Source: Lunatimonas sp. (GTDB lineage: Bacteria; Bacteroidota; Bacteroidia; Cytophagales; Cyclobacteriaceae). From it: a stretch of 57,942 bases of DNA. The position numbers and the translations under genes were made by a program. Positions 4,415-15,804 of this stretch are shown here, piece by piece. The notes below the pieces were generated by a model that did no database searches, was not told the DNA's origin, and worked only from the letters and a program-made list of their open reading frames with translations. How positions within the stretch are numbered: the first letter of the stretch is position 1; each line of letters starts with the position of its first letter. The DNA lies in contig NZ_JAFIEU010000027.1 of NCBI RefSeq assembly GCF_020832325.1, positions 1 through 57,942 on the forward strand, given 5' to 3'.

Positions 4415-5524
4415 ATGAGAGTACTTTTGGTGAACAATTATTCAATGGAGCGGGCCTATGATCTTTGGAAGAATGGGATCAGCGGAAGTCACCATGTGTG
4501 GGGCAAAATTGAAATTGAAAAAAAGGGAGAGATTGAGGTGATCGTTTTTCCACATGTAAAATATAGATGGATTAACAAAATTGGGGCAGTATTTGGGGTA
4601 ACACATTTGGATCAGCAGGTTAGAATTCTATTTCAACTGAAATCATTTGATATACTTTATGCTCCCTATTCGAAGGCAAATTTGAAATTTCTTCTTTTAT
4701 TAAAAGTTTTGGGGTGGTTTCGAAAGCCAATAGTAGTTACGATACATCAGCCATTCTTGCTCAAGAGATCTACTGCAATTTCAAGATACATTTCCAAGCT
4801 TGTACTGGCTCAATATGAAGCGGCTGTTTTTCTTAGCGAGCCATTGATGCAAAGGACCATTGAGTTTTTAGGACTTGAAGAGGAACAGTTTAAAGAAAAG
4901 TTTTCCACAGCTCAATGGGGACCGGATATATCTTATTACGACAAATATTGTGTGACTAGGATTCCTTTTGAATCCTGTGAGTACTTTATAAGCGCGGGCC
5001 ACACCGATCGTGATTTTGAGACTTTAATTGAAGCGTTTAGAGGGCTGCCTTTTAAGTTGAAAATTTTTTGTACACCAACATCTATTCCAAAGACAACGGA
5101 TATTCCATCAAATGTAGAGGTTGACTGGGCGGTAACATTCTCTAAGGACTTAATACCATTTTACCAGAAGTCTATCGCAATTTTGATACCGCTCAAGTTT
5201 CCCGATTACAAGGAGGGTTGTCAAGGGATGACCAGTATACAAGATGTGTTAACATTTGGAAAGCCCTCGATAATCACGCGAAATCGCTGTTTGAATATCA
5301 GTGTGGAAGGTGAGGGACTTGGTTATGAAGTTAGCATGTATGATGTGGCCGGTTGGAGAGAGAAGCTTGAGGTTTTAGCAACACAAAAGCAAAAGTGGGA
5401 GTATTTCAGTGAGAACGCTGATAGGGTTTTTAGGTCCAAGGTTAATTCCCAGCTCTTTGGCGACCATATGGGACAAGTGTTTAAAAAAGTGTATGAAAAA
5501 TATGTAACAAATAAAATACTATGA
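4415..5524 (+). CDS. Glycosyltransferase, GT4-like
   Basis: This encodes 369 residues from the ATG before RVLLVNNYS. An alternative in-frame ATG lies three codons upstream at 4406. The opening beta-strand and loop, the mid-protein segment [11 protein letters not shown], the C-domain start [19 protein letters not shown] and the acidic/glycine segment [19 protein letters not shown] fit a GT-B (GT4-type) transferase. It has no membrane anchor. Its stop overlaps the rfbF start (ATGA), so it is translationally coupled to CDP-sugar synthesis and probably adds a sugar to a surface polysaccharide. Donor and acceptor are unknown. Sequence identity to well-known GT4 enzymes looks low. Confidence 0.6.
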
Positions 5525-6303
5525 AGGCAGTAATTCTTGCGGGAGGGTTTGGTACGCGAATAAGTGAAGAAAGTGCGGTAAGGCCAAAGCCTATGGTACA
5601 CATAGGTTCCCAGCCTATATTATGGCATATAATGAAGATTTATTCGCATCATGGAATTAACGAGTTCGTAATTTGTTGTGGTTATAAAGGCCAATCAATT
5701 AAAGAGTATTTTTTAAACTTCTCTCAATTGAATTCAGATTTCACGATAGATTTGGTAAACAATGACGTTGTGGTACACAAACCTCAGCCAGAGCCGTGGA
5801 AAATAACACTTGTTGATACCGGACAGGACACTATGACCGGTGGTCGGCTAAAGCGTGTTCAGGAATATATTGGTAATGAAAGCTTTTGTATGACATACGG
5901 TGACGGTGTATCTGACGTTGATGTGAGAGCTTGTATTGATTTTCATAGACGAGAAAAATGTCCTGCAACACTTACAGCCGTACAGCAGCCTGGTCGGTTT
6001 GGAGCGTTTATTCTTGGTGGAGAAAGAAACCGGGTTGGAAACTTTCGGGAGAAGCCACAGGGGGACGGTAATGAGTTGGCGATGATTAATGGAGGTTTTT
6101 TTGTACTCGAGCCAGAGGTTTTTGATCTAATTGACGACGATAGTACGATTTGGGAACGAGGGCCGATGGAGCATTTGGCGGCAAACGATCTTCTGGCTGC
6201 GTATGTCCATATGGGATTTTGGCAGGCAATGGACTCACTTCGGGATAAGAATTATTTGGAGGAGCTTTGGGCAAGCGGAAACGCACCCTGGAAGGTTTGG
6301 TAA
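5521..6303 (+). CDS. rfbF: Glucose-1-phosphate cytidylyltransferase
   Basis: This encodes 260 residues. It transfers CMP from CTP to glucose-1-phosphate to give CDP-glucose, the entry to CDP-dideoxy and branched sugars of O-antigens. The N-terminus [18 protein letters not shown] with [18 protein letters not shown] is the nucleotidyltransferase signature. The segments [19 protein letters not shown] and WEREGPMEHL-like [10 protein letters not shown] are typical of RfbF. It overlaps the upstream glycosyltransferase by 4 bases. The usual partner, CDP-glucose 4,6-dehydratase (rfbG), is not in this window. Confidence 0.92.
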
Positions 6304-6332
6304 TTTGATTTTGACATTTAATTGAAGACAGT

Positions 6333-7382
6333 ATGAGAGTTTTGATCACGGGAAACATGGGGTATATAGGTCCGGTATTGGTCCGGCATTTAAGAAATGT
6401 ATTTCCTCAGATTGAGATTATTGGATACGATATTGGATATTTTGCAGACTGTCTTACGGGCACAGGTTATTTTCCTGAGGTATTGGTAGATAGGCAGGTT
6501 TTTGGTGATGTAAGGAAGTTTCCCGCACAGTTGTTGGATGGAGTAGATACGGTAATCAATTTGGCGGCTATTTCAAATGATCCTATGGGGAAGAAATTCG
6601 AGGAAGTAACCATGGACGTTAACTACCGCGCATGTGTGGAAATAGCTACAATGGCAAAAAGTGCTGGTGTTCGTTCGTTTGTTTTTGCTTCGAGTTGTAG
6701 CATGTATGGGGCGGCAGATGATTACCCAAAAACTGAAGAGAGTGCCTTCAGTCCACTAACTGCCTATGCTAAGTCGAAGGTATATGCAGAACGAGATCTT
6801 AGGCAATTGGCGGATTCATCTTTTGTTATTACCTCATTGAGATTTTCTACCGCCTGCGGATTTAGTCAAAGGTTGAGGTTGGATTTGGTATTAAATGATT
6901 TTGTAGCTGGTGCGGTTGCAGACCAAAAGCTCGAGATTTTGAGCGATGGGACACCTTGGAGAGCAATGGTGCATGTAAAAGATATGTCAAGAGCAATTGA
7001 ATGGGCCACTGTAAGAGAGACCTCCTGTGGTGGAGATTTTCTTGCGGTAAATATTGGGTCCAATTCATGGAATTTTCAAATTAAAACAATGGCGGAGGCC
7101 GTAACAGAAATAATCCCTGGAGTCTCTTTGAGTCTAAATAAGAACGCACCCGCCGATAAACGATCCTATAAAGTAAATTTTGATTTATTTTCGAGATTAG
7201 CGCCAAATCATCAACCTATATATGATCTACCGATGACCGTCAGAGAATTGGAGGCAGGCCTTCGTACTATGAAGTTCTCTGATAGAAATTTCAGAAACTC
7301 CGATTTGATTCGACTAAGGGTGCTAAATCGACTTCAGGAGGAATCTTTACTCAATGATTCCTTGGCTTGGCAGATCATATAG
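6333..7382 (+). CDS. NAD-dependent sugar-nucleotide epimerase/dehydratase (extended SDR)
   Basis: This encodes 349 residues. The Rossmann motif is GNMGYIG at residues 7-13, the active-site serine is in ASSCSMYG, and the YxxxK pair is in YAKSK. It is an extended SDR acting on a nucleotide sugar, most simply the CDP-sugar made by RfbF, 29 bases upstream. The C-terminus (RELEAGLRTMKFS) is like SDRs next to RfbF in O-antigen clusters. Whether it is a 4,6-dehydratase, an epimerase or a reductase cannot be read from sequence. It lacks the obvious features of RfbG that would make it the missing dehydratase. A weak terminator follows. Confidence 0.75.
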   Translation: MRVLITGNMGYIGPVLVRHLRNVFPQIEIIGYDIGYFADCLTGTGYFPEVLVDRQVFGDVRKFPAQLLDGVDTVINLAAISNDPMGKKFEEVTMDVNYRACVEIATMAKSAGVRSFVFASSCSMYGAADDYPKTEESAFSPLTAYAKSKVYAERDLRQLADSSFVITSLRFSTACGFSQRLRLDLVLNDFVAGAVADQKLEILSDGTPWRAMVHVKDMSRAIEWATVRETSCGGDFLAVNIGSNSWNFQIKTMAEAVTEIIPGVSLSLNKNAPADKRSYKVNFDLFSRLAPNHQPIYDLPMTVRELEAGLRTMKFSDRNFRNSDLIRLRVLNRLQEESLLNDSLAWQII

Positions 7383-7387
7383 TCGAT

Positions 7388-7410
7388 AGGTTTTTTTAGA
7401 ACCTTTTTCT
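7388..7410. terminator. Weak terminator between convergent genes
   Basis: A 5-bp stem AGGTT/AACCT is followed by TTTTTC on the plus strand, between the convergent SDR gene and SAF-oxidoreductase gene. The stem is short, so the call is tentative. Confidence 0.3.
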
Positions 7411-7432
7411 CGGTGGTTTTAGACAGTTCGGT

Positions 7433-8728
7433 TTACCGAGAGTGAAAGTGTGCAACTTGCTCTTCTCTAAGCTTGTCTACTGTTCTTCCTGGTGGCAAAA
7501 TTACATCGTCGTACGTTAGCACTTGATCTTTTGCCACATCTCGTTTTAAGATGCATCCTTCTGCCAACCCCAATGGCAGTAGGTTTTCTTTAAGCGAAAT
7601 GTCTGTGTTTTCGCACAATCCATACGTCATATAATGTCCAATTCCATCTATAACAGACCCTTTCGTTAAATCAATTTTTGCTGCTGCTACCACATCAACG
7701 AGGTGTTCTTCCGGAGCAATCGCTGCGTCATTGAAAAGAACAGCTCTCGCCACGGTGATAGGGACTTCGAAATGACATAGGTGATATGGATTGTAAAAAC
7801 AATAAAGAGGGCCTTCACCAACCTTATAAAGGTTTAGATAGTGTTTTTGTGTCGGGTTTTCCATTGTACCAACTACAAAAACTCCAGGCCCAGGACTAGC
7901 ACCTACAATATAATCTACAATTCCAGGCCCTTCCAATAGATCCTCGATTGGATATTCATCGAGACATTCTCTAACATGCTTGCCCATTTCCACGGTAGGC
8001 CCATGCATTCCACGTTTAGCCACACGCATACCGGTAGCATTTGCTGTGATAGCTTGTTCAAACGAGATTTTACTTCCATCAGCAAAAGAGGTTACCATTG
8101 CAGGGTTTTGTTTCCATTTCTTCGCAAATCCCTCTTGGGTAGTTGGGTTTCTATAGGGATCATGGAGTCCCTTGATATTCCCACACATGACAGGTTTAAG
8201 TCCAATTTGCTTTACAAAGCGAAATAAATTAAGTGTTACACCCGGTTGGTCACCGTCTGCATTTGTAAAGACGACGCCTTGGCGATCTGCATATACCTTT
8301 AAGATAGGTCCTACAGTGCCGTCAGTTTCAGCATTCATCATGACGATATGCTTGCTGTTTTTTATGGCACTCATCGCTATTTGGCTGCCTAATTCTACAG
8401 CCCCAGTCACCTCAATAATCACATCCAACCCATCGGCTTCGCAAAGCAAAAACGGATTATCCGTTATTGCTTTATTACCAAACCGAATAGATTGATTAAG
8501 GGATTGAAGTGTATCTACATTTACAATGTTTTTGGCATTGGCAAGTTCGAATACCTCTTTAGCCTTCGAAAGCGTTCTGTTGGAAATCGCCGCCAATTCC
8601 ATCCCTGCGGTAAATAACTCTATTTGAACAGCAATCCCTTGGGCCATAAAACCTGCACCAATCATGCCTACTCGTATTGGGTTACCATCTTTCTCCCGCT
8701 GGGCTAATGCTTTGTCTACAATTATCAT
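7433..8728 (-). CDS. NAD(P)-dependent oxidoreductase, homoserine dehydrogenase-like with C-terminal SAF domain
   Basis: This encodes 431 residues. The N-terminus has the Rossmann loop IRVGMIGAGFMAQG (residues 18-31). The middle carries SNRT, VIIEVTGAVELG and HIVMMNAETDGTVGP, typical of the homoserine-dehydrogenase-like oxidoreductases. The end, about residues 350-431 (LGLAEGCILKRDVAKDQVLTYDDV), is a SAF domain. Relatives act on sugar acids and related polyols, and some lie in polysaccharide clusters. It sits 12 bases downstream of the RfbC-type gene on the same strand, so a role in making a CDP-linked unusual sugar is plausible. It is not the threonine-pathway enzyme: the SAF tail and the context argue against that. 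The substrate is unknown. Confidence 0.72.
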   Translation of the reverse strand: MIIVDKALAQREKDGNPIRVGMIGAGFMAQGIAVQIELFTAGMELAAISNRTLSKAKEVFELANAKNIVNVDTLQSLNQSIRFGNKAITDNPFLLCEADGLDVIIEVTGAVELGSQIAMSAIKNSKHIVMMNAETDGTVGPILKVYADRQGVVFTNADGDQPGVTLNLFRFVKQIGLKPVMCGNIKGLHDPYRNPTTQEGFAKKWKQNPAMVTSFADGSKISFEQAITANATGMRVAKRGMHGPTVEMGKHVRECLDEYPIEDLLEGPGIVDYIVGASPGPGVFVVGTMENPTQKHYLNLYKVGEGPLYCFYNPYHLCHFEVPITVARAVLFNDAAIAPEEHLVDVVAAAKIDLTKGSVIDGIGHYMTYGLCENTDISLKENLLPLGLAEGCILKRDVAKDQVLTYDDVILPPGRTVDKLREEQVAHFHSR

Positions 8729-8740
8729 AATTAATTCGGG

Positions 8741-9271
8741 TTACAGCTCAAAATAAGCATGGGAAAGGTCTTTTTCTGAAATTACAGAAATAGGAATGGG
8801 TAATTGTATCCCAAATTGAGGATCGTCCCACTTGATTCCTCTTTCTGATGTGGGAGAGTAAAACTCAGAAACCAAGTAACTTACCAATGTATCATCCTCT
8901 AGTGTAATAAAACCGTGAGCGAAACCTTTCGGTACATAAAGCATCGTGCCGTTTATCGCACTTAGCTCGGTTCCGTACCATTTTTTAAAGGTCGGAGACT
9001 CGGTTCGCAGGTCAATAATTATGTCAAAGATGGACCCTTGAATACACTGCACAAGTTTTGTCTCTTGATGGGGTGCAACCTGATAGTGGAAACCACGGAA
9101 TGTGCCCGATTTTTTGGAAAATGAAAGGTTTCCCTGAGCAACGTTAGCAGTCAATCCATGTTCTTGGAATTCGCGTTGGCAAAAGGTTCGTGTAAAAAAT
9201 CCGCGCTCATCTCCTATTTTATTGTATTTAATTTGGTAGGCTCCTTTAAGGATGGTTTCTTCAAAATGCAT
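8741..9271 (-). CDS. rfbC: dTDP-4-dehydrorhamnose 3,5-epimerase family protein
   Basis: This encodes 176 residues, the normal length for the RfbC/RmlC cupin. It has DERGFFTRTF, QGNLSFSKKSGTFRGFHYQ (with the catalytic histidine in RGFHYQ), LRTESPTFKKW and LYVPKGFAHGFITLEDD. The enzyme epimerises C3 and/or C5 of a 4-keto-6-deoxy nucleotide sugar. Since the island contains rfbF and no rfbA/B/D, the substrate here may be a CDP- rather than a dTDP-sugar. It is the first gene of a minus-strand pair with the SAF oxidoreductase, divergent from the SDR gene at 9753. Confidence 0.85.
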   Translation of the reverse strand: MHFEETILKGAYQIKYNKIGDERGFFTRTFCQREFQEHGLTANVAQGNLSFSKKSGTFRGFHYQVAPHQETKLVQCIQGSIFDIIIDLRTESPTFKKWYGTELSAINGTMLYVPKGFAHGFITLEDDTLVSYLVSEFYSPTSERGIKWDDPQFGIQLPIPISVISEKDLSHAYFEL

Positions 9272-9752: not shown

Positions 9753-11156
9753 ATGAGGGATGATATATTTAGTTTGATTTGGGAGGCTTCGGCAGAATCC
9801 GATACGCAGAGCGGATATGAGGAGTTGGTCACATTGACGCAGAAACTGGTAAATACGTACGAAAGCCAAGGAAGGATAGTAGAAGACCCTTTATTGCCCT
9901 CTAGAAACCGGATTCTAAGTTTGCCTTTGGATGAAGTGGGTGATATTGTTCGTGGAAAGATATGCTTGGTAACCGGAGGATTAGGTTGTGTGGGATCAAA
10001 GTTGGTTCGAGAGCTATTGGTATTTCAACCTAAGCGTATTGTCATATGTGATATACGCAGTGAGAATGATAGTTTTTTTCCGATCCCAAAAGATGATCGG
10101 ATTCAGCTTGAGACTTGTTCGATTCTAGACCAAGAGGGTTTGATGGAGGTTTTTGATAGGTATAGCCCTCAGCTTGTATTTCATACGGCAGCACAGAGAA
10201 ATCCAGGACTTGCAGAAAAGAAGATTTCAAACACATTGGACCTCAATATAAAAGGAACTTGGAACCTATTGAATGTATGTGAAACGTCTGTAAGTGTAGA
10301 AAGAGTTGTATTTTCTTCTACAGGAAAAGCAAGTCGATATTATACTGAGGAGGTTTATTCTGCTTCCAAAAAGGTTTGTGAAATGTTAATGGACTATTTT
10401 TCAAGAAGAAATCCGGAAAAATTGTTTGCGATGGTAAGATTTACCCATATAGTGGACAATAGTCTAATGAATGATGAATTACGACGCTGCGCATACGAGT
10501 CCGATAGAATTAATATTCATTCTCCCGGTAAGTTTGTTACCGCCCAAAATGTTGAAGAAGCTGCTTTTCTGATGTTGAATGGCTTGGTATATTCAGAAAG
10601 TGGACAGTGTAACTTTCTGCTTGTGAAAAACCTAGAGTGGCCTGTAGAAAGTCTTGAGGTCGCTCTCTATCATATTAAGATGTCCGGTAGAAGGATTCCG
10701 ATCGTTTTTGTAGGTAATCCGCTAGGCTATGGTGAGAAATTTTTCAGGGGGCAGTTGGATTGGAGCCAATCCCTTGAATTGAACCTTTTGATTAATGTTT
10801 ATGAAAATAGGGTTAGAAAAATAAATTCTTCCAAGGATATCATTATCAGTACATTGATCCCCTACGATGAATCGGAGTTAATAGACTTTGTCAATCGATT
10901 GGATCCACAGCTTTGTGAAGTGGAAGCAAAGAATTTGTTGATCGCCAGTATGAGAAAGATATTTGCATATTCTCTTTCCAAAGTAGATCCAGGCATTACG
11001 TACGAAATTCTGAAATGGGGAATATCACCGAAATTCTTAGCGGCTGATAACATTAAAGTGTCCGATTTTGGCGTTATGGTACCTTTGATGATCGAGTCAT
11101 TGAATGGTACTGAACGGATAGACGAACTAATGATGCATTTGGAAGGTGAAAATTAA
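9753..11156 (+). CDS. CapD/FlaA1-like nucleotide-sugar SDR with extra N- and C-terminal regions
   Basis: This encodes 467 residues. About 65 residues without membrane helices precede a Rossmann domain opening VRGKICLVTGGLGCVGSKL (glycine motif at 74-81). VFHTAAQRNPGLAE and VVFSSTGKAS follow, then VYSASKKVCEML with a Tyr202/Lys206 YxxxK pair. The arrangement VRGK..LVTGG..xxGS and HTAAQ matches CapD/FlaA1/PseB-like polysaccharide dehydratases and epimerases. Unlike full CapD it has no N-terminal transmembrane region. After about residue 340 a further domain of about 125 residues is not recognised. It is followed after 43 bases by the JAMM gene and probably shares its transcript. The reaction is unknown. 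Confidence 0.7.
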   Translation: MRDDIFSLIWEASAESDTQSGYEELVTLTQKLVNTYESQGRIVEDPLLPSRNRILSLPLDEVGDIVRGKICLVTGGLGCVGSKLVRELLVFQPKRIVICDIRSENDSFFPIPKDDRIQLETCSILDQEGLMEVFDRYSPQLVFHTAAQRNPGLAEKKISNTLDLNIKGTWNLLNVCETSVSVERVVFSSTGKASRYYTEEVYSASKKVCEMLMDYFSRRNPEKLFAMVRFTHIVDNSLMNDELRRCAYESDRINIHSPGKFVTAQNVEEAAFLMLNGLVYSESGQCNFLLVKNLEWPVESLEVALYHIKMSGRRIPIVFVGNPLGYGEKFFRGQLDWSQSLELNLLINVYENRVRKINSSKDIIISTLIPYDESELIDFVNRLDPQLCEVEAKNLLIASMRKIFAYSLSKVDPGITYEILKWGISPKFLAADNIKVSDFGVMVPLMIESLNGTERIDELMMHLEGEN

Positions 11157-11199: not shown

Positions 11200-11619
11200 A
11201 TGTTGAAAATTTCTACTGGGCTTATGAATCGCCTTATCGGCCATACAGAGAATGTAGCAGAGGAATTATGTGGATTATTGCTGGGTAGACTGTTGGATGA
11301 AGAGACAGGAGAAGTAAGCGATTTCGTACGTGTTTCAAACAGTGAAACGAAAGATAGACAACATTTCTATCTTATTAGCACCGATGACTATTTGAGGGCG
11401 GAGAGAATCGCGTTAGAATCGAATTTGGAGATATTAGGCGTTTATCATACTCACCTAAATTATCCCCCTATTCCATCTGAAACAGATAAAAGGTTTGCTT
11501 TTCCCGGCTTTTTTTATCTTATTTTGTCCATGATTGATTACAAATACCTACATGCTAGGTGTTGGAGAATGACGGAAATGGCAGTGTTTATGGAAGAAGA
11601 AATTAGATTTTATAGTTAA
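11200..11619 (+). CDS. JAMM/MPN+ metallopeptidase
   Basis: This encodes 139 residues, a single JAB/MPN domain. The zinc-site residues are visible: Glu22 before CGLLLGR, His83 and His85 in VYHTHLNYPPIPSETD, Ser93, and Asp96. The spacing equals the canonical HxH-x7-S-xx-D motif, so an active peptidase is expected. In bacteria such enzymes cleave after the diglycine of ubiquitin-like sulfur carriers (Mec+/CysO in actinobacteria). Here the gene ends 6 bases before the start of a fused carrier-E1-rhodanese protein with an internal diglycine, which is the obvious substrate. The product is cytoplasmic, with no signal peptide. Confidence 0.85.
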   Translation: MLKISTGLMNRLIGHTENVAEELCGLLLGRLLDEETGEVSDFVRVSNSETKDRQHFYLISTDDYLRAERIALESNLEILGVYHTHLNYPPIPSETDKRFAFPGFFYLILSMIDYKYLHARCWRMTEMAVFMEEEIRFYS

Positions 11620-11625
11620 ATAATT

Positions 11626-13056
11626 ATGGCAAAAGTTATTATACCGACTCCGCTTAGAAAATTTACAGGCAATGCATCCGAGGTGCAAGTTGAGGGTGGC
11701 ACAATCAAGGAAATAGTAGAAAATTTGGTGCTGCAATACCCTGGGGTGAAGAATTATCTCAGTACTTCCGAGGGCAAAATTCCGTCTTTTATAAACATAT
11801 TTATAGACGAGGATGACATAAGAAGCCTGAATGGAGAGAATTCAGTTGTAGACAGAAAGGCTGTTATCAGTATTGTTCCAGCTATTGCCGGAGGTTCATT
11901 GGACGATGAACTTCGGTTTTCCAAAGAGGAGCTTGCAAGATACAATAGGCATATTATTATCCCAGAATTTGGCATGGAGGGGCAAATATGTCTCAAGAAG
12001 GCTAAAGTTTTAGTTATAGGTTCTGGGGGCTTGGGCAGCCCGCTGTTACTTTATCTGGCTGCCGCGGGTGTAGGTAACATTGGGATTATTGATTTCGATA
12101 CCGTTGATGACAGTAATTTACACCGGCAGGTGCTTTTTGGTGTATCTGAGGTGGGTAAGCCCAAAGTAGAGGCTGCAAAAGAAAGGTTGGAAGCAATCAA
12201 CCCCTACATCAATATAGAGGTGTTTAATGAGCAATTTTGTTCCAAGAATGCATTGGAGTTGGTTAGTAGATATGATGTCGTGGCAGACGGAACGGACAAT
12301 TTTCCTACTCGTTATCTAGTCAACGATGCTTGTGTACTTGCGGGAAAAACAAATGTGTATGCTTCAATTTTTCAGTTTGAGGGGCAGGTCACCGTATTTA
12401 ACTATCGGGATAAGAATGGTGTTCTAGGTCCGAACTATAGAGACCTATATGATTCCCCCCCGCCTCCGGGATTGGTTCCCAATTGTGCCGAAGGTGGAGT
12501 TCTTGGTGTGTTACCAGGAATAATTGGTAGTCTACAGGCTTTGGAAGTTATCAAAGTGATTACGGGAGTTGGAGAACCGCTAAGTGGTAAATTGTTTACT
12601 TTCGATGCGTTGTCATTTACATCTAGATTATTTAAAATCACAAGAAAAGACACCAATCCGTTAAATGGAAAGACACCGACCCAATTTAAACTGATCGATT
12701 ATGAACAATTTTGTGGAGTAAGTGCAGTTGAAAGAAAGGTGAAGGAGATTGACGTTGAGCAATTTATAGAGTGGAGGGCTTCAGGTGAGGATTTTCAATT
12801 AATTGACGTAAGGGAAATAGAGGAATTTGAGGACGTAAATATGGGTGGGGAGTTGATTCCATTGCAAACCATTCTTGATAATACCAATAGAATTTCACGG
12901 GAAAAAAAGGTGGTAATTCACTGTAAAATGGGAGGTAGAAGTGCAAAGGCAATTCGAGAACTTGAGGATAAATTTTCGTACACAAACCTCTATAATCTCA
13001 AGGGTGGAATCATTGAATTCCTGCAATATGAAGAAGATCATTTGGGAGTGGATTGA
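11626..13056 (+). CDS. Three-domain sulfur-transfer protein: MoaD/ThiS-like + E1-like (MoeB/ThiF) + rhodanese
   Basis: This encodes 476 residues. Residues 1-90 are a MoaD-type beta-grasp carrier ending in VPAIAGG, so the diglycine (89-90) is internal. Residues about 97-350 are an E1-like adenylyltransferase: nucleotide loop GSGGLGSP (132-139), IIDFDTVDDSNLHRQ (154-168), DGTDN (221-225) and the catalytic-type cysteine in NCAEGGVLG (C287, equivalent to the MOCS3/Uba4 active cysteine). Residues about 370-470 are a rhodanese domain with IHCKMGGRS (C433). The two CxxC pairs that bind zinc in MoeB/MOCS3 are absent (GPNYRDLY, NPLNGK). The gene follows the JAMM gene by 6 bases. Likely role: make a carrier thiocarboxylate after JAMM processing. 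The sulfur acceptor is unknown. Confidence 0.85.
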   Translation: MAKVIIPTPLRKFTGNASEVQVEGGTIKEIVENLVLQYPGVKNYLSTSEGKIPSFINIFIDEDDIRSLNGENSVVDRKAVISIVPAIAGGSLDDELRFSKEELARYNRHIIIPEFGMEGQICLKKAKVLVIGSGGLGSPLLLYLAAAGVGNIGIIDFDTVDDSNLHRQVLFGVSEVGKPKVEAAKERLEAINPYINIEVFNEQFCSKNALELVSRYDVVADGTDNFPTRYLVNDACVLAGKTNVYASIFQFEGQVTVFNYRDKNGVLGPNYRDLYDSPPPPGLVPNCAEGGVLGVLPGIIGSLQALEVIKVITGVGEPLSGKLFTFDALSFTSRLFKITRKDTNPLNGKTPTQFKLIDYEQFCGVSAVERKVKEIDVEQFIEWRASGEDFQLIDVREIEEFEDVNMGGELIPLQTILDNTNRISREKKVVIHCKMGGRSAKAIRELEDKFSYTNLYNLKGGIIEFLQYEEDHLGVD

Positions 13057-13512: not shown

Positions 13513-15804
13513 TTAAAAGTTTGGTCTTTTAGGTCCGACATAGGGTTTTGCCCCTTGTTCTGTCATCCAAGATGCATCGACACGGATGAGGTCAGTTTCT
13601 GTAGCCTCTGGCGCTTGTATAAAGCCATAATACCTGCCCATCCAATAGTCCCTGAGGAAGCCGACAGGTTCCATGATTCGCTTGCCGTTTACCCCTCCAT
13701 CGAGTACGATAGCCCTTCTAGCACCTCGCATGACACTTTTTTCCCGAGGCGAAATGGCCTTGAGACCACCCTCATAGGAGGTGTAGCCTGGCGCGACAAA
13801 GAGGTCGTCTCGATGGGAGTTTTGGTAGTTGTGTTCGATGCAATCCAGGGTCCACTCTCTCAGATGCTGTACAGCTTCATCCAATTCCGCATCGTTTCCG
13901 GTAAAGGCGGCATAGCTGAAATTGAACCAGGGAATTTGCTCCATACGCTTGATCTCGTAGGTTCGCTCCAGGCTACGGAGATAGACGGACCTACGTGCCG
14001 GATCCTTTTCGTAGCGTAGTAAGGTATTGTAGGCTTCAAAGGCCAAGTTGTCATCCCATGGGGCAATTTCTGAGGGGGGAAATGTTTTTTTCTGCCGAAT
14101 GGTATTTTGGGCATATCCCCAGTCTATGAGTTGTTGGTAGCCTTGTTTAAATCTTTCTTCCCCGGTGAGTGCGTACGTGGCGTAGGAAAAGGCCAATGCT
14201 TCCAATCCGTTTACGCCACGGTCTTCCCAGCCATAGGGGCGAAGAAGGTATTCGGGATTCCATCTACCCCAACGGGTAGGTTGTCCGTCGTAGTCGATCA
14301 GCACCCAGCCGTTGTCCATGATATATCCTGCAATCCGGCGCATGTGTTCTTTGGCCAGTTCCTTTTCGCGGGCATCCGCAGCCAGGTCGTGAAACAGTGA
14401 TACCGAATAAAAGTGCGCGATGATTTCATCGCTAGAGGCATCCCCTTTCCAATACCAAAGACTGTCTGCAGTAGCGTTCCATTTGGCGGGTAATCCACCG
14501 GAACCTCTCTTGCCCATTCTGCCCTTGTCTCCCTGCCTGGACCAAATGGATCGAGCTATCAGGCCATCGATGGGGGTGATACGCTCCAGCCACAGCATGG
14601 CCTCGAAAGCCTCAGAGGCCTCTTTTCTCGCCGTTTCATCGCCTGTGACCGCATATTTGTAGCTCATACCGGTAAGGTAAGATGCAGTGTGAGACCCGTC
14701 GTTGTCGCTGATTTCCCGTACCCATTCTCCCTCGTAGTCGTAGAGGGTATGAATAAATCCTAGTCGCTTATGACCCCAGTGATCCAGCCATTTCTCGTAG
14801 TGGTCAGCTTTTTTCAGCAGCGTGTAGGGTTCGTACGAAATCACCCCAAGCCCTTTATCTGTGGCGATATAGACGGCATGGTCACCGACCGCGATCCCAT
14901 TGACTTGATTATCTGGAAGCCAATGATCTGCTCCAAAGTAATGCCAGTCCTTTCCTACCATGCGTATTGCACCTCGTGGAGTCCCGATCCATACATCCCC
15001 CGCAAAGCCCCGAACAAGCTGTTGGGTGTTTTCAACGGGTAGCCCGTCTGCTCCTTTGATACCACTCATGGAGGCACCCCGCAGGACGCCCAATCCGCGG
15101 TCGGTGCTAATCAACAAGCGACTTCCCACAGACAGCATTTCTTGGGTATTGTTGGAGGGTAGGTTTCCCCAGTCAATCAAGTGTTCGTTTACGATGGCTC
15201 CGGCGAGTTGGACCAACTTGCCGGGTCGCAAGATGTGGAGGGTGCCTGCATAGCTTTCTATCGCTGTAATAGGGCCAAGCTTCACCGGATCCGCAAGGAG
15301 TTGCGTACCATCTTCCATCACCATGGTAATATCACTGGACAGGTACCCGCCTTCTGGCATGATATTTACTAACTTGTCGTTTTCAAGAACAAATATGTCG
15401 TCTTTGGTGGCAGCGTGCGGTTTGGACAGGTGCATGCACACGTCAACGATGGGTTTGTTGTCTAGTTTTCGCCAGCTACTACCTTCTAATCTGTAAAGCC
15501 CTCCTGGCCCAAAAGCAACTAGCTGATCTCCTAAAGTTTTTAGTTTGGCCAGCCCGCTTGGTGATTGAGGGATGGGCTCAAATATTTTGTCGGTCAGTTG
15601 GCAGATACGATTATCGATCAACGCAAATATCTTGTTTTCGTGGATCGCGACTTGCTGCACTGGTCGTGTGGTAGGTATAACTGTAGATTTTTCTTGGAGG
15701 TAAACCTTGTCTTCCACTGCCCGCCAAAGCTTTGTTTCTTGGGCATTTGAGGCGTTGCTGTATAGCGCGAACACAAGGAAAAACAATTTCCATTTTTTTG
15801 ACAT
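13513..15804 (-). CDS. Secreted beta-propeller plus alpha-helical barrel protein
   Basis: This encodes 763 residues. A signal peptide (about 1-21, cleaved after SNA) leads to an exported protein. Residues about 22-330 hold repeats such as LLISTDRGLGVLRG, DVWIGTPRGAIRM and VYIATDKGLGVIS, the WxGTxxGL-like pattern of two-component-regulator propellers. Residues about 335-760 are helix-rich with many conserved aromatics (GWEDRGVNGLEALAFSYATYALTGEE, APWDDNLAFEAYN), resembling an alpha/alpha-toroid as in glycoside hydrolases and polysaccharide lyases. There is no kinase domain, so this is not a hybrid two-component sensor. A periplasmic or surface carbohydrate-related function is inferred. No specific family is recognised. 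Confidence 0.6.
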   Translation of the reverse strand: MSKKWKLFFLVFALYSNASNAQETKLWRAVEDKVYLQEKSTVIPTTRPVQQVAIHENKIFALIDNRICQLTDKIFEPIPQSPSGLAKLKTLGDQLVAFGPGGLYRLEGSSWRKLDNKPIVDVCMHLSKPHAATKDDIFVLENDKLVNIMPEGGYLSSDITMVMEDGTQLLADPVKLGPITAIESYAGTLHILRPGKLVQLAGAIVNEHLIDWGNLPSNNTQEMLSVGSRLLISTDRGLGVLRGASMSGIKGADGLPVENTQQLVRGFAGDVWIGTPRGAIRMVGKDWHYFGADHWLPDNQVNGIAVGDHAVYIATDKGLGVISYEPYTLLKKADHYEKWLDHWGHKRLGFIHTLYDYEGEWVREISDNDGSHTASYLTGMSYKYAVTGDETARKEASEAFEAMLWLERITPIDGLIARSIWSRQGDKGRMGKRGSGGLPAKWNATADSLWYWKGDASSDEIIAHFYSVSLFHDLAADAREKELAKEHMRRIAGYIMDNGWVLIDYDGQPTRWGRWNPEYLLRPYGWEDRGVNGLEALAFSYATYALTGEERFKQGYQQLIDWGYAQNTIRQKKTFPPSEIAPWDDNLAFEAYNTLLRYEKDPARRSVYLRSLERTYEIKRMEQIPWFNFSYAAFTGNDAELDEAVQHLREWTLDCIEHNYQNSHRDDLFVAPGYTSYEGGLKAISPREKSVMRGARRAIVLDGGVNGKRIMEPVGFLRDYWMGRYYGFIQAPEATETDLIRVDASWMTEQGAKPYVGPKRPNF

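Follow-up and report, generated by a model that had tools for sequence, protein, structure and literature searches.

The window (the whole stretch of 57,942 nucleotides that we analysed, from a Lunatimonas sp.) encodes a JAMM metallopeptidase and, 6 bases further on, a protein in which a ThiS/MoaD-like sulfur carrier runs straight into an E1-like enzyme and a rhodanese (Table 1). The gene for an SDR protein precedes the JAMM gene on the same strand, with a gap of 43 bases, and sugar genes lie upstream of it.

Table 1. Features of the locus, with positions in the window.
Feature	Position	Strand	Evidence
CDP-sugar genes (glucose-1-phosphate cytidylyltransferase, SDR, DRL-type oxidoreductase, RmlC-type epimerase)	5521..9271		Several relatives have them close by; may or may not belong to the unit
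SDR protein (467 aa) that opens the unit; fold like that of the nucleotide-sugar enzymes PglF/CapD	9753..11156	+	Pfam Polysacc_synt_2; AlphaFold/Foldseek; PglF profile alignment
JAMM/MPN+ metallopeptidase (139 aa), likely to cut the pro-carrier	11200..11619	+	Pfam Prok-JAB; catalytic residues conserved in relatives
Carrier-E1-rhodanese fusion, 476 aa	11626..13056	+	ORF; Pfam; PDB sequence matches; alignment of relatives
ThiS/MoaD-like (CysO-like) carrier domain, residues 1-90, end PAIAGG	11626..11895	+	Pfam ThiS 4-90; separate carriers in split relatives
Gly89-Gly90|Ser91 junction, predicted cut	11890..11898	+	Gly-Gly kept, next residue and linker vary; pLDDT <50 at 87-91
E1 (ThiF/MoeB/MoeZ-like) adenylation domain with Cys287	11941..12657	+	Pfam ThiF 106-344
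Rhodanese domain with Cys433	12784..13020	+	Pfam rhodanese 387-465

The genes are as the original prediction described them. It had reported a complete JAMM motif, and Glu22, His83, His85, Ser93 and Asp96 are all present in the order E-x(n)-H-[S/T]-H-x7-S-x2-D (with H83-T-H85), which places the protein in the JAMM/MPN+ family. The match to Prok-JAB (E = 2.9e-14; 53.4 bits against a curated Pfam cut-off of 25) is the only one over the cut-off in the whole genome. Among 76 JAMM proteins from related loci, this one included, both histidines, the serine and the aspartate are always kept and the glutamate is kept in 75. (The sole exception, from locus L034, comes from an ORF that is truncated at its start.) The fusion also has the internal Gly89-Gly90, Cys287 and Cys433 that had been reported. 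The whole ThiS model (1-76 of 76) aligns to its residues 4-90 and ends at Gly90 (33.9 bits; cut-off 22.5), so the N-terminus has the form of a ThiS/MoaD carrier, a ThiS-family domain that ends in Gly-Gly. As encoded, this Gly-Gly is not a free C-terminus: 386 residues follow Gly90 in frame. Those residues have the features of the MoeZ/MOCS3/Uba4 type, namely a ThiF domain with its cysteine (4e-78, over the curated cut-off) and a C-terminal rhodanese domain with its active cysteine (also over its curated cut-off), and NCBIfam's MoeZ model scores 424.5, below its cut-off of 647. The fusion's sequence matches in PDB include MoeB and Uba4 and, for the first ~90 residues, small ThiS/MoaD-family chains, with the match ending at Gly90. 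Across 31 aligned fused proteins, Gly89, Gly90, Cys287, Cys433 and the whole of PAIAGG are invariant. With these 31 sequences as input, AlphaFold gave a model with a mean pLDDT of 84 and a pTM of 0.62; residues 87-91 are below 50, so the cut site is modelled as an open linker.

To place this protein among its relatives, we kept 80 of 300 loci found by a scan of genome contigs, which with the window makes 81 loci. The carrier is fused in 35 of these, is a separate ORF in 41, and is not recognised in 5. The order JAMM, carrier, E1-rhodanese recurs in tens of Bacteroidota genomes, so the arrangement is more than chance. All 35 fused proteins keep the Gly-Gly at the junction, with a linker of 11 to 45 residues behind it, and the next residue varies (Ser in 23, Ala in 4, Ile in 3, Val in 2, and Gly, Leu or Thr in 1 each). 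The separate carriers are mostly 90-96 amino acids long. Just 4 of the 41 end exactly at Gly-Gly, and one of these (L067) is probably damaged, with the first 36 residues of the carrier missing. The other 37 continue, by one residue in 7 cases, two in 22, three in 2 and four in 2 (33 of 41 have one to four), by six residues in 1, and by more in 3 doubtful cases (L052, which runs into N bases, L054 and L084). Taken together, the tails of the split proteins and the junctions of the fused ones show that the carrier ends at the same place in both forms. At least one residue after Gly-Gly is the rule in the 81-locus set, fused or not. Across 395 genomes from the phylum, 48 encode the carrier, and in 22 of these it lies in a stop-free frame of at least 478 residues; 13 of the 30 phylum loci that we read, including the window, are fused. 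We discount an artefact of assembly or frame, given the 35 fused loci and these 22 long frames. A scan of the 395 genomes with an exact Gly-Gly pattern gave 9 sites in 7 genomes (L183-L191), and a carrier, JAMM or E1 was seen at just one of them (L184).

These variants bear on two ideas about why the carrier is fused. The original prediction held that fusion makes the JAMM obligatory for start-up. But tails also occur on 37 of the 41 separate carriers, where start-up would require trimming too, so the idea is not supported. It had also proposed that the point of the fusion is to fix the carrier:E1 ratio at one. In a FastTree of 121 E1-rhodanese cores (46 fused, 64 split and 11 without a carrier, with 18 chosen family loci included and L021, L081, L052, L067, L084 and L085 left out), the fused or split state changes at least 12 times, counted without assigning a direction, and well-supported branches alone force 8 changes for the fused state. 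The window's clade has ten rows, 8 fused and 2 without a carrier, with a support of 98. The fused form is thus widespread and easily changed, which makes it unlikely that a fixed 1:1 ratio is essential or is the purpose of the fusion.

In the 81-locus set, a JAMM gene is adjacent at 34 of 35 fused loci, 37 of 37 tailed ones, 2 of 4 exact ones and 3 of 5 without a carrier. The one fused exception is Lunatimonas lonarensis, whose JAMM gene is on another contig, beside sugar genes and a second, free carrier (Gly-Gly plus two residues). A JAMM was thus found for all 35 fused proteins; fusions in genomes with no JAMM at all, which the original prediction had named as the observation that would speak against it, are absent from this set. 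The two exact carriers that have no adjacent JAMM are the probably damaged one and that of Chryseosolibacter (L079), which ends exactly at Gly-Gly and whose genome has no JAMM match at E = 0.01. This is the one intact carrier operon we saw whose genome shows no JAMM. Among the phylum genomes, 47 of the 48 with a carrier have a JAMM (E = 1e-6; a hand count from two listings), as do 86 of the 347 without; the 48th is a partial match. Of the 12 fused phylum loci, two (L218 and L219) have no JAMM within the fetched flank, although their genomes do contain one. In a set of 69 loci from the family, 36 have no carrier, JAMM is adjacent at 26 tailed and 5 fused loci, and the two loci without it are again the fused one of L. 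lonarensis and the exact one of Chryseosolibacter. The relatives and family sets share at least 6 genomes (L009, L010, L011, L030, L049 and L079), and L013 is identical in the tree to L193 of the phylum set; the sets were pooled only in the Fisher test labelled as such below.

It had been suggested that the presence of a JAMM might track with fused versus separate carriers. JAMM does accompany nearly every fused carrier, and equally the tailed ones, but exact carriers often keep it too: it is kept at 5 of 5 phylum loci that have an exact Gly-Gly and a cysteine synthase, and also at the exact loci L043 and L071. As a predictor of JAMM, a tail or fusion versus an exact end is weak (Fisher p = 0.006 for the 81 loci, 0.08 without the damaged locus, and 0.28 when pooled with the phylum loci). 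Retention at exact loci with a cysteine synthase is as expected if JAMM also frees cysteine, as Mec+ does. So the presence of a JAMM does not by itself prove maturation.

The original prediction called the locus a self-contained unit, and the neighbours do not support this, as there is usually a third gene. A cysteine synthase adjoins the module at 65 of the 81 loci and an SDR at 10; no locus has both, and 6 have neither. JAMM is adjacent too at 64 of the 65 cysteine-synthase loci. (For the one relative tested, the best NCBIfam model of this synthase is cysM, below its cut-off.) There is no cysteine synthase beside the window's unit, as there would be in a CysO/CysM/Mec+ operon, and the genome's best match to one relative's operon CysM has 36% identity. 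In the window's lineage a PglF-like SDR has replaced the usual cysteine synthase. A search for this SDR family in 196 genomes of the family gave 10 matches at a threshold of 1e-60, each with E <1e-200; all 10 are just upstream of a carrier-E1-rhodanese module, and it occurs nowhere else among the 196. JAMM lies between the SDR and the module in 8 of these, the exceptions being L. lonarensis and Chryseosolibacter. If the 35 genomes taken to bear the carrier (34 with a JAMM, plus G166) were a random subset, this co-occurrence would have a chance of 1e-8, uncorrected for kinship. Hosts of the SDR type include Lunatimonas, Cecembia, Chryseolinea and Chryseosolibacter, and Arcticibacter (Sphingobacteriaceae) is a further host among the 81 loci. 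The locus of Cyclobacterium sp. 1_MG-2023 (L053) has lost its SDR, JAMM and carrier, which leaves the E1-rhodanese, and no JAMM was seen in that genome.

The JAMM proteins differ between the two types of operon. At 65-75% identity of the E1-rhodanese, the mean identity of the JAMM is 35% within the SDR type (44 pairs from 11 loci) versus 52% within the cysteine-synthase type (869 pairs from 64 loci), although these pairs are not independent. At position 88 (numbering of the window's JAMM), all 64 cysteine-type proteins have His and none of the 11 SDR-type proteins does; the corresponding figures are 64 of 64 and 2 of 11 for Pro at position 20, and 63 of 64 and 1 of 11 for Cys at position 23. 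Both types retain the catalytic set. We infer that the SDR-type JAMM has lost a second, former task, probably the release of cysteine, and has kept cutting. Recycling of the Mec+ kind, as had been proposed for the window's JAMM, fits the operons with a cysteine synthase; the window's unit has no such gene beside it and its JAMM has lost residues that the cysteine type conserves, so there maturation is the more likely job.

What might the SDR do? Its AlphaFold model has a mean pLDDT of 84, and the top Foldseek hits are PglF (TM of 0.80-0.83 by target). The Asp of PglF's T-D-K motif is catalytic. In a profile alignment it falls on Gly191 of the SDR, within S189-T190-G191-K192, so the SDR has no Asp-Lys pair of the kind found in the 4,6-dehydratases PglF, FlaA1 and CapD. 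Gly191, Lys192, Tyr202 and Lys206 are invariant in all 10 SDRs. With this replacement, the SDR probably acts on a nucleotide sugar as an oxidoreductase or epimerase, and not as a dehydratase. (The title of a structure entry for PglF D396N/K397A partly backs the catalytic role of the Asp-Lys pair.) Sequence and fold searches of PDB place the SDR near PglF and name no substrate. Upstream, the glucose-1-phosphate cytidylyltransferase and the RmlC-type epimerase are both over NCBIfam cut-offs. By our reading, at least two of the four sugar genes are in the fetched region at 8 of 13 loci (the window, L010, L011, L043, L048, G121, G180 and the JAMM locus of L. lonarensis); they are not in the fetched region at L030, L034, L049, G100 or L079, where the contig begins 1.5 kb upstream of the SDR. 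We set aside molybdenum cofactor synthesis as a role. No gene for it was seen among the unit's neighbours. Another contig of the genome (C34) carries a ThiS-family gene over the cut-off together with another E1-rhodanese, among genes that we read as those of molybdenum cofactor synthesis, so the cofactor pathway is equipped separately.

Comparison of the loci gives the domains, the catalytic residues, the conservation of the cut site, the association with JAMM and the operon partners, and it supports well the original proposal that the carrier must be freed, with the JAMM as the likely protease. We think it likely that the fusion is an extreme pro-carrier, born with its own E1-rhodanese as a tail and matured by the JAMM next door. 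The fusion would be the precursor of a CysO/MoaD-type sulfur carrier, and a cut after Gly90 would separate the carrier, now ending in a free Gly-Gly, from a MoeZ/Uba4-like enzyme. The E1 would then adenylate the carrier's C-terminus, and a persulfide on Cys433 of the rhodanese would provide the sulfur for a thiocarboxylate. For most relatives its destination would be cysteine, made via the neighbouring synthase, and JAMM would, like Mec+, also free cysteine from the carrier. In the window's lineage, where the SDR takes the place of the synthase, JAMM would probably serve maturation only and the sulfur would go to another acceptor.

Other explanations account for some of these observations. A housekeeping protease or self-cutting might free the carrier, with JAMM releasing only products or conjugates; this would explain why JAMM is retained beside carriers encoded with an exact Gly-Gly end, and the available part of the MoaX paper names no protease for its cut, so a non-JAMM protease is conceivable (PMC4326299). 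Also, the Ser that follows Gly-Gly in 23 of 35 fused proteins would permit an acyl shift. But the other 12 have Ala, Ile, Val, Gly, Leu or Thr, so there is no fixed nucleophile, and we reject self-cutting by a conserved one. Furthermore, the window's JAMM has no cysteine synthase beside it and has lost residues conserved in the cysteine type, yet it has kept its catalytic set. We consider this explanation unlikely. It is also quite unlikely that the carrier is a ubiquitin-like modifier which JAMM strips from targets such as the SDR, with no sulfur transfer. The best NCBIfam matches would fit a modifier, being desampylase for the JAMM (52 bits; cut-off 130) and SAMP1 among carrier families (38.7; cut-off 60), both below cut-off, and HvJAMM1 with SAMP1 is described, in the part of the paper available, as regulating MPT synthase (PMC4443979). 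Sulfur transfer is favoured by the fusion of the E1 to a rhodanese with an intact Cys433 and by the cysteine synthase at most loci. (An Urm1-like dual use of the carrier is conceivable.)

It seems very unlikely that the fusion works uncut, with its E1 serving separate carriers from elsewhere in the genome. The window's genome does have a second ThiS-family protein, and L. lonarensis encodes both a fused carrier and, beside its JAMM, a free one. However, the second gene in the window's genome sits among the putative molybdenum-cofactor genes with an E1-rhodanese of its own, and the internal PAIAGG is invariant in 31 fused proteins. Finally, it is extremely improbable that free carrier or E1 comes from internal translation starts or termination: although the linker contains GTG or TTG in frame in 13 of 35 fused genes, including the window's by our reading, only 1 has an ATG and 21 have none of the three, and an internal start could yield the E1 by itself but could never free the end of the carrier.

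One idea about the SDR-coupled operon, which we regard as doubtful, is that the PglF-like SDR readies a keto intermediate of a nucleotide sugar, perhaps CDP-linked, that takes the sulfur of the carrier's thiocarboxylate and ends up as a sulfur-bearing surface sugar. JAMM would then be the dedicated maturation protease of an E1-fused carrier, and the operon would be a redirected cysteine relay in Cyclobacteriaceae and some of their kin.

Many Bacteroidota encode a sulfur carrier as the front of its own E1, beside a protease that is well suited to free it. Maturation of fused carriers by a JAMM is not a new idea: it was printed by Iyer and co-authors in 2006, as the suggestion that a JAB might cleave ThiS or MoaD off fused partners, in a paper whose available part lists operons of ThiS/MoaD, JAB and E1-rhodanese both with and without cysteine synthase (PMC1779556), and it has been shown elsewhere for MoaD-MoaE. 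We found no paper in the open-access literature on a carrier-E1-rhodanese precursor with a JAMM or on an SDR-coupled operon. What is new is the swap of partner from cysteine synthase to SDR, an operon type outside rows 4a-4e of the 2006 catalogue. Also, a single orthologous operon that comes in fused, tailed and exact Gly-Gly versions is a large natural experiment on JAMM in bacterial sulfur transfer, and it addresses whether JAMM serves maturation, product release, or both. The sulfur acceptor of the SDR-coupled operon is a testable question, and in cultured environmental bacteria.

The short tails of the split relatives, of one to four residues, resemble those of the pro-carriers QbsE and HcyS, from which the JAMM proteins QbsD and HcyD remove one or two residues after Gly-Gly before the carrier is used. 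The window's tail differs in being a 386-residue enzyme.

Other known systems share one part or another of this arrangement. Here we rely on the parts of the cited articles that were available. A ubiquitin-like domain precedes an E1 in one chain in proteins of the Campylobacter jejuni ThiF type and in Thaumarchaeota (PMC1779556, PMC2948915), but that domain is described as distinct from ThiS, or the C-terminal domain is another one, and those parts propose no processing by a JAMM. In archaea, JAMM-type proteases (CsRpn11 or CsJAMM) act on ubiquitin/SAMP precursors, and CsRpn11 trims its precursor precisely after Gly-Gly (PMC6043591); that is a ubiquitin-conjugation system in which the tail is nine residues and not an E1. 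A closer likeness is to the MoaD-MoaE fusions, in which a carrier with an internal Gly-Gly lies ahead of a partner enzyme: DRJAMM cuts DR2607 of Deinococcus radiodurans (PMC8832034), and MoaX of Mycobacterium tuberculosis is cut at Gly82|Ser83, a cut that is required (PMC4326299). In those fusions the partner is the acceptor enzyme MoaE, whereas here the carrier is joined to the enzyme that activates it and donates its sulfur, and the cut is predicted from sequence. Lastly, the operon resembles the CysO-CysM-Mec+-MoeZ pathway of Mycobacterium, in which Mec+ frees cysteine from the carrier (PMC3227635), and row 4c of the 2006 catalogue: a carrier ending in Gly-Gly, a MoeZ-like E1-rhodanese, a JAMM and a cysteine synthase. 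Unlike CysO, the carrier of these Bacteroidota is fused to its E1 or mostly has a tail, and in the window's lineage its neighbour is an SDR instead of a cysteine synthase.

Lunatimonas lonarensis has two ThiS/MoaD-like sulfur carriers, one free and one fused to E1-rhodanese, which are encoded on separate contigs and share 56% identity with one another.

Other related loci lack a recognized carrier. At L053, in Cyclobacterium sp. 1_MG-2023, the E1-rhodanese remains, its N-terminal stretch differs, and SDR (the PglF-like protein), JAMM (the Prok-JAB metallopeptidase), and the carrier are jointly absent. Three loci from Niastella/Longitalea (L056, L066, and L068) encode JAMM and E1-rhodanese; none of the three has a recognized carrier upstream of E1-rhodanese, and cysteine synthase, the usual partner in relatives, is a neighbor in none.

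We also saw JAMM apart from the carrier. In our sample of 395 genomes from the phylum, many genomes of family f18 (genera g138 and g143) encode a JAMM relative (about 72-101 bits), and no f18 genome is in the sample's carrier list. Perhaps these proteins belong to another JAMM system. Two loci from family f29 (L218 and L219) have fused carriers and no JAMM in the fetched flanks; each genome encodes two JAMM relatives, all on contigs other than the carrier's.

Immediately downstream of the window's unit is a 763-aa protein that had no matches in Pfam or NCBIfam at E 0.1. On the sugar side, a DRL-type oxidoreductase adjoins the CDP-sugar genes, an arrangement that recurs in several relatives. 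In genome G121, SDR is separated from the sugar genes by what we read as transposase genes, and these may account for the parting of the sugar block and the sulfur unit.

Locations of features in the window and in related loci
Feature	Location	Strand	Context
DRL-type oxidoreductase (PF21135)	window 7433-8728		
763-aa protein	window 13513-15804	minus	
Free carrier, GG (Gly-Gly) plus two residues, with JAMM	L168:4999-5703		L. lonarensis; inside sugar-gene cluster
Fused carrier	L009:8001-9413		L. lonarensis; with SDR
E1-rhodanese	L053:7704-9134		Cyclobacterium sp. 1_MG-2023
Putative transposases	L170:8569-11122		G121
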